Below are positions 9,450-18,468 of a stretch of 64,000 nt of DNA, in pieces. Source of the stretch: Pseudoxanthomonas sp. PXM03 (GTDB lineage Bacteria; Pseudomonadota; Gammaproteobacteria; Xanthomonadales; Xanthomonadaceae); contig NZ_JACVAU010000002.1 of assembly GCF_014852005.1 (NCBI RefSeq), positions 744,001 to 808,000 on the forward strand. The letters run 5' to 3'. Under the pieces are notes generated by a model, which saw only the letters and a program-made list of their open reading frames with translations, did not search any database and was not told the origin of the DNA. Position numbers and translations under genes: made by a program. Within the stretch, counting starts at the first letter, position 1, and each line of letters begins with the position of its first letter.

Positions 9450-9465
9450 TGGCACGCAACCTGCT
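9450..9465 (+). promoter_or_regulatory. Sigma-54 promoter of first pilin gene
   Basis: TGGCACGCAACCTGCT matches the -24/-12 consensus TGGCACG-N4-TTGCW with one mismatch in the -12 part; GG (9451-9452) and GC (9463-9464) are separated by exactly 10 bases. The predicted transcript starts near 9475, giving a leader of about 95 bases before the ATG at 9570. Confidence 0.85.
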
Positions 9466-9569
9466 CTACATCCCGTGCACGCGTCGTTTAAACGCGGCGC
9501 CCACGGTCCATGTAGGGACACGGGGCTTGTGTCCCTAACCATCAAGCCAATCCTGAAAGGGGAAACACC

Positions 9570-9887
9570 ATGAAGAAGAACGCCCAGGGCTTCACCCTGA
9601 TCGAACTGATGATCGTCGTCGCGATCATCGCCATCCTGGCCGCCATCGCGCTGCCGGCTTACAACAACTACCGCATCCGTTCGGCTGAGAATGCTTGCCT
9701 CGGCGAAGCCAAGGCCTACATGAACTCGTGGCTGGCCGCCTCGGTTTCCGACATGCCACTGCCGACCACTGACTTCTCGGCATGCACCGCCGGCAGCGCG
9801 GCGGCCCCCGACTTCACCCCAAGGGACCCGGGCGTGGAGCACACCACGTGTGACGCAACCACGGCAACCTGCTCGATCAGCCGCTGA
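9570..9887 (+). CDS. Type IV pilin, first paralogue
   Basis: A 105-residue prepilin. The short leader MKKNAQG is followed by the PilD cleavage site G^F and the hydrophobic helix [16 protein letters not shown] with the conserved Glu+5. The rest is a short C-terminal head with cysteines ([25 protein letters not shown]) that could form two disulfides. At about 98 mature residues it is shorter than usual type IVa pilins. GAAAGGGGAAACACC precedes the ATG. It has its own sigma-54 promoter and a strong terminator. Whether this or a paralogue is the major pilin is unknown. Confidence 0.9.
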
Positions 9888-9911
9888 TCAAGCAACACAG
9901 TCGGTTCAAGA

Positions 9912-9938
9912 AAGCCCCTCACACGAGGGGCTTTTTTT
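9912..9938 (+). terminator. Terminator after first pilin gene
   Basis: AAGCCCCTC-ACAC-GAGGGGCTT followed by a run of T is a textbook rho-independent terminator 25 bases after the pilin stop. It makes the gene monocistronic. Confidence 0.95.
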
Positions 9939-10052
9939 TCACTCGTCCGTTCCCGACGCCCGCACCTAAATTCATTTCCTCACAACGGCATCGCCATTTA
10001 TTCGCTACGACAATCACAGTTTGCACATGCTCCACCCACACGCCGCCATCTC

Positions 10053-10068
10053 TGGCTCGTTATTTGCT
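10053..10068 (+). promoter_or_regulatory. Sigma-54 promoter of second pilin gene
   Basis: TGGCTCGTTATTTGCT fits the -24/-12 consensus, with GG (10054-10055) and GC (10066-10067) spaced by 10 bases and a perfect TTGCT -12. The transcript would start near 10078, about 35 bases before the ATG. Confidence 0.85.
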
Positions 10069-16016: not shown

Positions 16017-16233
16017 TTTTTTCCCCTTTGCGATAGGGTATCCGGAAGCCCCCGCCACGGGGAACCCATCGGACCGGGGCAGCGCCCTGTTGCGTAACGG
16101 ACCAGCCTCACCCCAGGACTTGGCTGGTGGACGGTGCGGTACCGCCGGAAAGGCCGCCGCAACAACGTTCCACCGACATCCGTCACAGATTCACCCGCGC
16201 GCCCACCGCCAACGTGCCCTGCTCGTCTAGAGT

Positions 16234-16249
16234 TGGCTCGCTCCTTGCG
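16234..16249 (+). promoter_or_regulatory. Sigma-54 promoter of third pilin gene
   Basis: TGGCTCGCTCCTTGCG has GG (16235-16236) and GC (16247-16248) 10 bases apart and the same TGGCTCG -24 block as the second pilin promoter. Transcription would begin near 16259, about 30 bases before the ATG. Confidence 0.85.
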
Positions 16250-16288
16250 TGTGTTAATAATCAGGGGACCCTACAACAGGTGGACAGC

Positions 16289-16618
16289 ATGCGTCGCGAT
16301 GCACGAGGCTTCACATTGATCGAACTCATGGTCGTTGTTGCGATCATCGCGATCCTGGCCGCCATTTCGCTTCCCGCCTACAACGGATACCGCGTCCGCA
16401 GCGCGGAGAATGCGTGCCTGGCCGAAATGGAGGCCTATGCCGGCATCTCACTGGCGGTCATCCGCAACGGTGACGCTCCCGACGCCGCACCCCGGGCCGC
16501 CTGCCAGAACGCCGACGATGCGACCGCCGAGGGCGTGGCCATCTCGGGAACACCGCTGGCGCCGGGCGACCGCCAAGCGGTCTGCAACATGACCACGGGC
16601 GACTGCCAGCTCGAATGA
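16289..16618 (+). CDS. Type IV pilin, third paralogue
   Basis: A 109-residue prepilin with leader MRRDARG, cleavage before F, and helix [16 protein letters not shown]. It then has [16 protein letters not shown], close to the other two pilins, and a distinct head with cysteines in RAACQN, AVCNM and GDCQLE. The C-terminal SGTPLAPGDRQAVCNMTTG resembles the second pilin. The ATG at 16289 follows AGGTGG with five bases spacing. It is separated from its paralogues by the sugar cassette and followed by pilB after 116 bases. Confidence 0.9.
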   Translation: MRRDARGFTLIELMVVVAIIAILAAISLPAYNGYRVRSAENACLAEMEAYAGISLAVIRNGDAPDAAPRAACQNADDATAEGVAISGTPLAPGDRQAVCNMTTGDCQLE

Positions 16619-16734
16619 ACCATCCCGGTCGTGCAGACACCTGCACCCGGATGCCGATATCACCGCCCTCTGCAGAACCATGCGTGGACGACTTGAATTA
16701 AAGTGCCCGCCGTTGTCACAGGACCAGATTCGCC

Positions 16735-18468
16735 ATGAACGCAGTCGCCGCCCCCAATCTCGTAGGCATCACCGGCATCGCCCGCCGACTGGTGCAGGAC
16801 GGAGCGCTGGATGAAGCCGCTGCCCGCGCTGCCATGGCGAACGCCACCGAAGCCAAGCTCCCGTTGCCGCAGTGGATCGCAGAAAAGCGACTGGTCACCG
16901 CGCCCCAGCTGGCAGCCGCGAATGCGATGGAATTCGGCATGTCGCTGCTGGATGCGACCGCGTTCGACCCGAGCCATAACGCGCTGAAGCTGGTCAGTGA
17001 GGAACTGGTGCAGAAGCACCAGGTGCTTCCCCTCTTCAAGCGCGGCAACAAGCTGTTCGTCGGTGTCGCCGACCCCACCCGCAGCCATGGTGCGCTCGAC
17101 GAGATCAAGTTCCACACCAACCTGATCGTCGAACCCGTGCTGGTGGACGAGGACCAGCTGCGTCGTACCCTTGAACAGTGGCAGAACGCCGCCAACAACC
17201 TGTCCAGCAACTTCGGCGACGACGACGATGGGCTGGAAAGTCTGGAAGTGGACGCCTCCGATGAGGACGGCGGTACCGACAATGCCGTCGACTCGAAAGG
17301 GGACGACACGCCGGTCGTGAAGTTCGTCAACAAGGTCCTGGTGGATGCCATCAAACGCGGCGCCTCGGACATCCACTTCGAGCCCTACGAGAACGACTAC
17401 CGCGTGCGGCTGCGCGTGGACGGCATCCTGAAACAGGTGGCCAAGGCGCCGACCAAGCTGAAGGACCGCATTGCCGCGCGCATCAAGGTGATGGCGCAAC
17501 TGGACATCGCCGAAAAGCGCGTGCCGCAGGACGGCCGCATCAAACTGAACCTGTCCAAGAGCAAGCAGATGGACTTCCGCGTCAGCACGCTGCCCACACT
17601 GTTCGGCGAGAAGGTGGTGCTGCGTATCCTGGACGGCAGCGCCGCCAAGCTGGGCATCGACAAGCTGGGCTACGAGCCCGATCAGCAGAAGCTGTTCGAG
17701 GAGGCCATCCAGAAGCCTTACGGCATGGTGCTGGTGACCGGCCCCACCGGCTCGGGCAAGACCGTGTCGCTGTACACCGCGCTGGGCATCCTCAACGACG
17801 AGACGCGCAACATCTCCACCGCCGAAGACCCGGTGGAAATCCGCCTGCCCGGCGTCAACCAGGTGCAGCAGAACAACCGCCGCGGCATGACCTTCGCCGC
17901 CGCGCTGCGCAGCTTCCTGCGCCAGGATCCGGACATCATCATGGTCGGCGAAATCCGCGACCTGGAAACCGCCGAGATCGCCATCAAGGCGGCGCAGACC
18001 GGTCACATGGTGCTGTCCACGCTACACACGAACGACGCACCGCAGACCATCGCCCGCCTGATGAACATGGGCATCGCGCCGTACAACATCACCAGTTCGG
18101 TGACCCTGATTATCGCGCAGCGCCTCGCGCGCCGGCTGTGCTCGAAGTGCAAGCGCCCGGTGCAGCTGCCCCCGCAGGCCCTGCTGGCGGAAGGCTTCAG
18201 CGAGGCCGAGATCGCCGCTGGCTTCACCGTCTACGAGGCCGTGGGCTGCGACGAGTGCACCAGTGGCTACAAGGGCCGCACCGGCATCTACCAGGTGATG
18301 CCCATGAACGACGCGATCCAGGAGATCGTGCTGGAAGGCGGCAATGCCATGCAGATCGCGGAAAAGGCCCAGAAGGCCGGCATCCGCGACTTGCGCCAGT
18401 CGGCGCTGATGAAAGTGCGCAACGGCATCACCAGCCTGGCCGAGATCAACCGCGTTACCAAGGATTGA
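16735..18468 (+). CDS. pilB: Pilus extension ATPase PilB
   Basis: A 577-residue cytoplasmic hexameric ATPase that drives pilus assembly. The N-terminal MshEN/GspE-N domain is followed by the ATPase core. Walker A GPTGSGKTVSLYT lies near residue 335, the Asp box and atypical Walker B include DPDIIMVGEIRD, and the His box is STLHTNDAPQT near 429. A tetracysteine zinc site (CSKCKRP and CDECTSGYKG) follows. Length is standard. It is the first gene of the assembly set pilB-pilC-pilD, split from pilC by a REP pair. Confidence 0.96.
   Translation: MNAVAAPNLVGITGIARRLVQDGALDEAAARAAMANATEAKLPLPQWIAEKRLVTAPQLAAANAMEFGMSLLDATAFDPSHNALKLVSEELVQKHQVLPLFKRGNKLFVGVADPTRSHGALDEIKFHTNLIVEPVLVDEDQLRRTLEQWQNAANNLSSNFGDDDDGLESLEVDASDEDGGTDNAVDSKGDDTPVVKFVNKVLVDAIKRGASDIHFEPYENDYRVRLRVDGILKQVAKAPTKLKDRIAARIKVMAQLDIAEKRVPQDGRIKLNLSKSKQMDFRVSTLPTLFGEKVVLRILDGSAAKLGIDKLGYEPDQQKLFEEAIQKPYGMVLVTGPTGSGKTVSLYTALGILNDETRNISTAEDPVEIRLPGVNQVQQNNRRGMTFAAALRSFLRQDPDIIMVGEIRDLETAEIAIKAAQTGHMVLSTLHTNDAPQTIARLMNMGIAPYNITSSVTLIIAQRLARRLCSKCKRPVQLPPQALLAEGFSEAEIAAGFTVYEAVGCDECTSGYKGRTGIYQVMPMNDAIQEIVLEGGNAMQIAEKAQKAGIRDLRQSALMKVRNGITSLAEINRVTKD

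Follow-up and report, generated by a model that had tools for sequence, protein, structure and literature searches.

A variable glycan cassette between pilin genes of Pseudoxanthomonas: a probable pilin O-glycosylation system related to TfpW

What is a group of glycan-type genes doing in the middle of the major pilin locus of Pseudoxanthomonas sp. PXM03? In the stretch of 64,000 nucleotides analysed here, which we call the window (contig NZ_JACVAU010000002.1, positions 744,001 to 808,000, from a 4.03 Mb genome), two short type IV pilin genes precede a GT-C glycosyltransferase gene, a DUF354 gene, a methyltransferase gene, a flippase-like gene and a GT2 glycosyltransferase gene, and a third pilin gene and pilB follow; an earlier note, made from the sequence alone, had named all of these, and all are present. 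The parts are ordinary, but together they probably make up a coherent, widespread system of pilin modification that comes closest to TfpW and to three-component glycosylation. On the strength of gene content, homology, predicted fold, co-occurrence and co-divergence we read the locus as a three-component pilin O-glycosylation system, with a probability of roughly 0.8. The genes run pilS, pilR, pilA1, pilA2, GT-C, DUF354, methyltransferase, LPG_synthase_TM protein, GT2 (lying on the minus strand and convergent with the genes before it), pilA3, pilB, pilC, pilD and coaE, where the names pilS, pilR, pilC, pilD and coaE are presumed from synteny. The features are as follows.

5723..8980, plus strand: pilS and pilR, presumed two-component regulator (flank; named from position)
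9450..9465, plus strand: sigma-54-type site before pilA1, TGGCACGCAACCTGCT (pattern match)
9570..9887, plus strand: pilA1, short type IV pilin, precursor of 105 residues, C-DATTAT-C end loop
10053..10068, plus strand: sigma-54-type site before pilA2, TGGCTCGTTATTTGCT (pattern match)
10113..10442, plus strand: pilA2, short type IV pilin, 109 residues, C-DMNTGS-C end loop, immediately 5' of GT-C
10594..12477 (likely; open reading frame 10498-12477), plus strand: GT-C glycosyltransferase with TPR tail, TfpW/PMT-like (profile, fold)
12595..13629, plus strand: DUF354 protein (PF04007, E 4.5e-13)
13661..14248, plus strand: S-adenosylmethionine-dependent methyltransferase, variable cargo (PF13489, E 3.4e-15)
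14238..15152, plus strand: LPG_synthase_TM-family membrane protein, possible flippase (PF03706, E 1.7e-9)
15165..16016, minus strand: GT2, predicted polyprenyl-phosphate sugar synthase, DPMS/ArnC/GtrB-like (PF00535, E 1.9e-33)
16234..16249, plus strand: sigma-54-type site before pilA3, TGGCTCGCTCCTTGCG (pattern match)
16289..16618, plus strand: pilA3, short type IV pilin, 109 residues, C-NMTTGD-C end loop
16735..18468, plus strand: pilB (TIGR02538, E 3.1e-264)
16735..20968, plus strand: pilB, pilC and pilD block (flank; pilC and pilD presumed from synteny)

The GT-C protein of the window, taken alone, matches nothing in Pfam or NCBIfam, and a PDB search with its single sequence returned no match; we set its identity by profile and predicted structure, which give a fold like that of protein O-mannosyltransferase (PMT) and oligosaccharyltransferase (OST), followed by a TPR tail. 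In structure comparison the fold is closest to protein O-mannosyltransferase, with STT3 tied with it. The tail dominates the lists obtained with the full-length profile and with Foldseek, and the GT-C fold becomes visible in a second-look alignment; the sole PDB match of the N-terminal profile we judged to be due to chance. A predicted catalytic Asp pair (D66/D67) and the other motif residues are invariant in one set of 76 GT-C sequences and in another of 41. Matches to Wzy_C or PglL-type domains were absent from the window protein in Pfam and NCBIfam and from 27 members in Pfam, DUF1736 was matched in 0 of those 27, and viral contigs searched for relatives held none. The true start is probably 10594 rather than 10498, because M33 is nearly invariant (alignment A1) and residues 1-32 have a predicted local distance difference test score (pLDDT) below 50; the gap to pilA2 is thus 151 bp, or 55 bp if counted from the start of the open reading frame.

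Its partner, GT2, is predicted from homology to be a polyprenyl-phosphate sugar synthase of the GtrB or dolichol-phosphate-mannose synthase (DPMS) type. The best PDB matches by phmmer are dolichol-phosphate-mannose synthase (5mlz, E 4.5e-17), ArnC and sll0501, which we take to be GtrB-like; the protein ends in two hydrophobic segments, and of 92 sequences 97% or more share D83 and D85. Among 198 genomes of the family, 100 have GT-C (34 of 54 genera) and 90 have a GT2 that reaches E 1e-60; 88 genomes have both, 12 GT-C only, 2 GT2 only and 96 neither, and both GT2-only genomes are assemblies of 82-83% completeness. Across the family GT2 stays 70-84% identical to the window copy, while GT-C falls to 24%.

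GT-C is also closely associated with pilin genes. We fetched 60 of the 99 other family loci, working down the match list so that the weakest matches were left out, and a pilin gene lies within 300 bp of GT-C in all 60. A scan of named genomes, some of them the same genomes as the family loci, gave 581 confirmed stretches; the best 80 correspond to 77 loci, of which 71 have a pilin within 300 bp and 74 within 2 kb. Those with a pilin neighbour include Acinetobacter, Marinobacter, Gilvimarinus, Alcanivorax, Roseateles and Pseudomonas chengduensis, in which GT-C and GT2 lie 3' of the pilin and share its strand. Sampling was extended to the class, which we take to be Gammaproteobacteria; here GT-C reaches E 1e-40 or better in 104 of 369 genomes and 83 of 272 genera. 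We examined 47 of these 104 loci (28 by best scores, 19 picked by hand), and a pilin lies within 1.5 kb in 32 by script and in six more by reading (two with a long open reading frame start, two with a cut open reading frame, two resembling prepilins of the mannose-sensitive haemagglutinin, MSHA). In L251 and L255, from two genomes of one genus, the prepilin genes next to this GT-C type were judged MSHA-like on inspection. Two or three differing GT-C genes in tandem at one pilin locus are common (L103, L109, L115 and others).

Does the transferase follow the pilin beside it? At loci with a single GT-C gene, GT-C distances correlate with pilin distances (rho 0.62, n = 36) and are uncorrelated with those of pilR (0.04), pilB (-0.04, n = 26) and GT2 (0.12, n = 33). 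These values come from gap-free identities with full-length controls, multi-GT-C loci being left out (36, 33 and 26 of 58 used); partial values are unchanged, and 0 of 999 permutations reach them. In GT-C trees of 76 and 99 sequences, both quick and built without a mixture model, the neighbours of pilins with a C-x6-C end loop are split off by a branch whose Shimodaira-Hasegawa-like approximate likelihood ratio (SH-aLRT) support is 97, on a side that groups Xanthomonadaceae with Acinetobacter, Marinobacter, Gilvimarinus, Alcanivorax and one Pseudomonadaceae member. The smaller tree omitted alternate family loci from L052 onwards and took 'short' by a length rule; the larger holds all 58 family loci that yielded a GT-C and pilin pair, and on it the pilin loop class changes once and the length class (at most 120 residues) twice, because the pilins of L081 and L087, with 117 and 120 residues, have another loop. 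The link to short pilins drawn in the earlier note is true of one GT-C clade, and most sampled relatives adjoin longer pilins.

The end loop of the short pilins offers a candidate acceptor. All of 67 distinct pilins, chosen by length and by the presence of a C-terminal C-x6-C loop, have at least one loop Ser or Thr, at position 4 in 85% and at position 6 in 67%, which makes these residues a candidate glycosylation site. Among the 98 GT-C-negative family genomes we tried 15 as controls, and the 14 that gave pilB have a pil locus with a pilin and with neither GT-C nor GT2; the pilin adjoins pilB in 10 of the 14 by reading, and counted from the conserved Gly all these pilins are 124-161 residues long. 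In two of these relatives a sulfatase-family protein (PF00884; L300:12563-14572 and L308:12600-14399), which we take to be phosphoglycerol- or phosphoethanolamine-transferase-like, is encoded beside the pilin. Different means of modifying pilin may thus gather at this locus as at a hot spot.

How much of the window's cassette belongs to the system? The earlier note had taken the five genes from GT-C to GT2 for one self-contained module, and this does not hold: the conserved core is pilin, GT-C and GT2, and the DUF354, methyltransferase and flippase-like genes are one version of a variable cargo. Both enzymes were held by 40 of 61 loci (L074 rearranged), and in these 40 the cargo between the two spans 1.7-8.8 kb and comprises 189 open reading frames, which fall into 72 similarity groups, 56 with a single member; frames were picked longest first, so that some genes were missed, including the window's own methyltransferase. 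Family matches were sought in 155 of the 189, scanned in two halves (frames under 200 residues, the window and L074 aside), and gave GT4-type glycosyltransferases (17 + 18), methyltransferases (15 + 12), DegT aminotransferases (6 + 3) and, as possible flippases, 10 LPG_synthase_TM (3 + 7) and 8 Wzx-like Polysacc_synt proteins (3 + 5). The trio of DUF354, methyltransferase and flippase-like genes recurs in 1 of the 198 family genomes (G160), again at a pilin/GT-C/GT2 locus, so that the search of relatives for the five genes away from pilins, which the earlier note had proposed as a check, turned up none. The methyltransferase and flippase genes of this second trio (L227) are 68% and 55% identical to the window's. 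The GC content of 0.68-0.64 in pilS, pilR and pilB drops to 0.61-0.56 from GT-C through the flippase gene, in keeping with a traded cassette. The pil genes of the window are closest, among those compared, to Pseudoxanthomonas: its pilR is 96% identical to that of Pseudoxanthomonas japonensis DSM 17109 (L103), and likewise to that of G117 (L097), of the same genus.

DUF354 (PF04007) is a family to which Pfam still assigns no function. It occurs in 3 of the 198 family genomes, and the two others both have it at pilin/GT-C loci (in G167 without the methyltransferase and flippase genes). In the class sample it occurs in 14 of 369 genomes including the window's. All 13 apart from the window's carry GT-C (P 4e-8), and 10 of the 13 have DUF354 directly behind a GT2 of 59-67% identity. 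Because it is confined to GT-C-positive genomes and mostly lies right behind GT2, we tie it to the lipid-sugar step. It is a probable cytoplasmic glycosyltransferase, and extension of the lipid-linked sugar seems a more likely role than its modification. A profile search of PDB gave no match, and one of five homologues scanned had weak GT4 matches (E 0.0007).

From these observations we infer enzyme activities, step order, acceptor site and sugar as follows. GT2 would load a hexose onto polyprenyl phosphate in the cytoplasm; the DUF354 protein would probably add a further sugar, which the methyltransferase would methylate; and a flippase, perhaps the LPG_synthase_TM protein, would bring the lipid-linked glycan to the outer side. 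There, in the periplasm, the PMT/OST-like GT-C with its catalytic Asp pair would move the glycan to Ser or Thr of the adjacent pilins, possibly within the C-terminal C-x3-[ST]-[GA]-[ST]-C loop, and its TPR tail may hold the acceptor. Pilin and GT-C travel as a unit, GT2 stays constant and the genes between are swapped, so that the glycans probably differ between species. The earlier proposal that GT2 charges a lipid, that GT-C transfers on the outer side of the membrane and that pilins are the likely acceptors is supported by co-occurrence, co-divergence, pilin adjacency and fold.

Several observations weigh against this reading. Seven of the 47 class loci lack a pilin within 1.5 kb of GT-C, and two more start inside a GT-C array and cannot be judged; at one class locus (L253) and one named locus (L164) the genes next to GT-C encode multihaem cytochromes, judged by eye from CxxCH motifs, with no pilin, and such GT-Cs could possibly have other acceptors. 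Twelve of the 100 GT-C-positive family genomes have no GT2 at the threshold (10 of these 12 are not among the 60 fetched loci). A GT2 of at least 55% identity lies inside the fetched stretch in just 39 of the 60 family loci and 58 of the 77 named loci from the best 80 stretches, many of which stop short of the expected GT2 position, and one of at least 50% in 30 of the 47 class loci, 28 of which have flanks of at most 1.5 kb. Linkage or co-transfer of neighbours could yield co-divergence of GT-C and pilin without an enzyme-substrate tie and may explain part of it, and the end-loop Ser/Thr could be structural. The DUF354 model, from two sequences, has a pLDDT of 44.6, too poor to use. Lastly, a GT-C using a monosaccharide donor leaves a second cytoplasmic glycosyltransferase without a role, and PMT-type enzymes do transfer monosaccharides. 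That property would suit an arrangement in two steps, in which GT-C adds the first sugar only, from polyprenyl-phosphate-hexose, and DUF354 and the methyltransferase serve a separate path away from pilin, with a second lipid-linked or a nucleotide sugar; the rarity of DUF354 at family loci fits this too. Given that DUF354 keeps to GT-C-positive genomes in the class and sits behind GT2 in most of them, we regard such a division as unlikely.

The cassette might instead modify a surface polysaccharide, O antigen or similar, the pilin locus being a mere recombination hot spot. Its cargo genes are of O-antigen type, hot spots tend to collect variable loci, and similarly built three-component systems modify O antigens, as an excerpt of PMC11127046 describes. 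Yet the pilin stands beside GT-C in every fetched family locus and in most examined loci of other orders, the GT-C tree follows pilin class, the fold is closest to a protein O-mannosyltransferase, and TfpW, the nearest characterised relative, acts on pilin (PMC11841053, in part); together these make a polysaccharide target improbable. Passages of PMC11841053 also describe pilin-adjacent accessory genes that aid assembly without modifying pilin, and GT-C could be a TfpY-like factor of this sort with no active transferase. That would sit badly with the invariance of the predicted catalytic residues and with the lipid-sugar synthase that accompanies GT-C, and the TfpY-like proteins of the same passages have three transmembrane segments, unlike the GT-C model, so that we give this idea very little credence. 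Pilin O-glycosylation thus remains the reading that we prefer.

When would the system be made? PilR is a sigma-54 activator, and pilS/pilR homologues are present in many related loci. A pattern fitted to all three pilin sites, TGGCWCGNNNNYTGC, occurs 5 times in the 64 kb, where shuffled sequence gives 0.40 on average; the two not before pilins are at 36039 (plus strand) and 37735 (minus strand). Sites were also scored against an assumed sigma-54 consensus over the 60 related loci and the window. Of 110 pilin genes, 72% have a site of at least 10/12 within 350 bases upstream, compared with 3.2% of 2200 control stretches, 1 of 76 GT-C genes, 0 of 37 GT2 genes and 14% of 37 pilB genes. The sites that the earlier note placed before all three pilins are thus there, and they may drive pilin expression, as it had supposed. 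Because pilin genes have such sites and GT-C nearly never does, the pilin promoter probably serves GT-C as well, by read-through from pilA2; scans for sigma-70 promoters and terminators gave chance level only.

On balance we lean towards the view that the window represents a large unnamed class, with pilin-matched PMT/TfpW-like GT-Cs, a constant polyprenyl-phosphate-hexose synthase and an exchangeable cassette, present in more than a quarter of gammaproteobacterial genera, giving O-antigen-like pilus 'serotypes', its C-x3-[ST]-[GA]-[ST]-C short pilins having spread between orders with their own transferase. Titles and the openings of abstracts in the open literature, a weak negative, gave no description of a pilin-linked GT-C and GT2 system in Xanthomonadaceae or of the cassette itself. 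Phages use type IV pili as receptors, and glycosylation of pilin by TfpO or TfpW protects against pilus phages, according to portions of PMC11841053. If our reading is right, swapped tailoring genes, a fixed donor synthase and a pilin-matched transferase would offer a general means of varying the pilus surface and may alter how pili look to phages and hosts. The many natural pilin/GT-C pairs make PMT-like substrate choice in bacteria directly testable, and DUF354 gains a testable function.

How does the system compare with those already known? TfpO/PilO and PglL-type O-oligosaccharyltransferases glycosylate pilin in the periplasm from a lipid-linked donor, as we propose for the window, but the window's GT-C is PMT/TfpW-like, a separation drawn from domain matches and fold. 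Eukaryotic PMT and TMTC1-4 O-mannosyltransferases differ from the window system, which is bacterial, pilin-linked and without a DUF1736 match; its motifs were equated with those of TMTC by eye only. Of the two TMTC features, a TPR tail and a DUF1736 loop, profile and model show the tail. In the parts of two papers available, TfpO, which adds O-antigen units, has no kinship with TfpW (PMC11841053), and PglL shares a family with WaaL ligases (PMC3643930). Three-component systems, in which a polyprenyl-phosphate-sugar synthase, a flippase and a GT-C add side chains to O polysaccharide (an excerpt of PMC11127046), share with the window the synthase, judged by sequence, and the GT-C; the window's candidate for the flippase is the PF03706 protein, assigned by family only. 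Such systems (GtrA/GtrB/Gtr; GT136 pentofuranose) act on O polysaccharide, whereas the acceptor in the window is most likely pilin and its extra glycosyltransferase and methyltransferase genes vary.

To our knowledge TfpW, the pilin arabinosyltransferase of P. paraeruginosa PA7/Pa5196 with group IV pilins, is the closest characterised system; the earlier note, which set the locus apart from TfpO and PglL systems, had overlooked TfpW. The window and TfpW systems are alike in having a distantly homologous GT-C beside the pilin in the pilA-pilB region: the family profile matches the pilA-adjacent GT-C of PA7 (genome G324; hmmsearch E 2e-12), hhalign aligns the window type with eight TfpW-type proteins over 264 columns (99.7%, E 2e-25), and an Asp pair and HP, KE and ER motifs are common to both by eye. 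'TfpW-type' is our label for eight Pseudomonadaceae loci, of which L206 alone is PA7, and these fall on the other side of a GT-C tree branch (SH-aLRT 98, with long branches flagged). The D-arabinofuranose cluster of PA7, the source of the TfpW donor polyprenyl-phosphate-D-arabinofuranose, was not seen by eye in two guessed stretches of G324. A GT2 of the window kind at 50% or more is in 0 of the eight TfpW-type loci (L209 has one of 34% nearby), in contrast to 11 of 11 window-type Pseudomonadaceae loci (L214-L224), and the window type thus differs by its own GT2 and by its variable cargo genes. Because the GT-Cs are homologous and GT2 goes with the window type only, the module acts at the same place as TfpW and probably shares its chemistry, though with a different donor.

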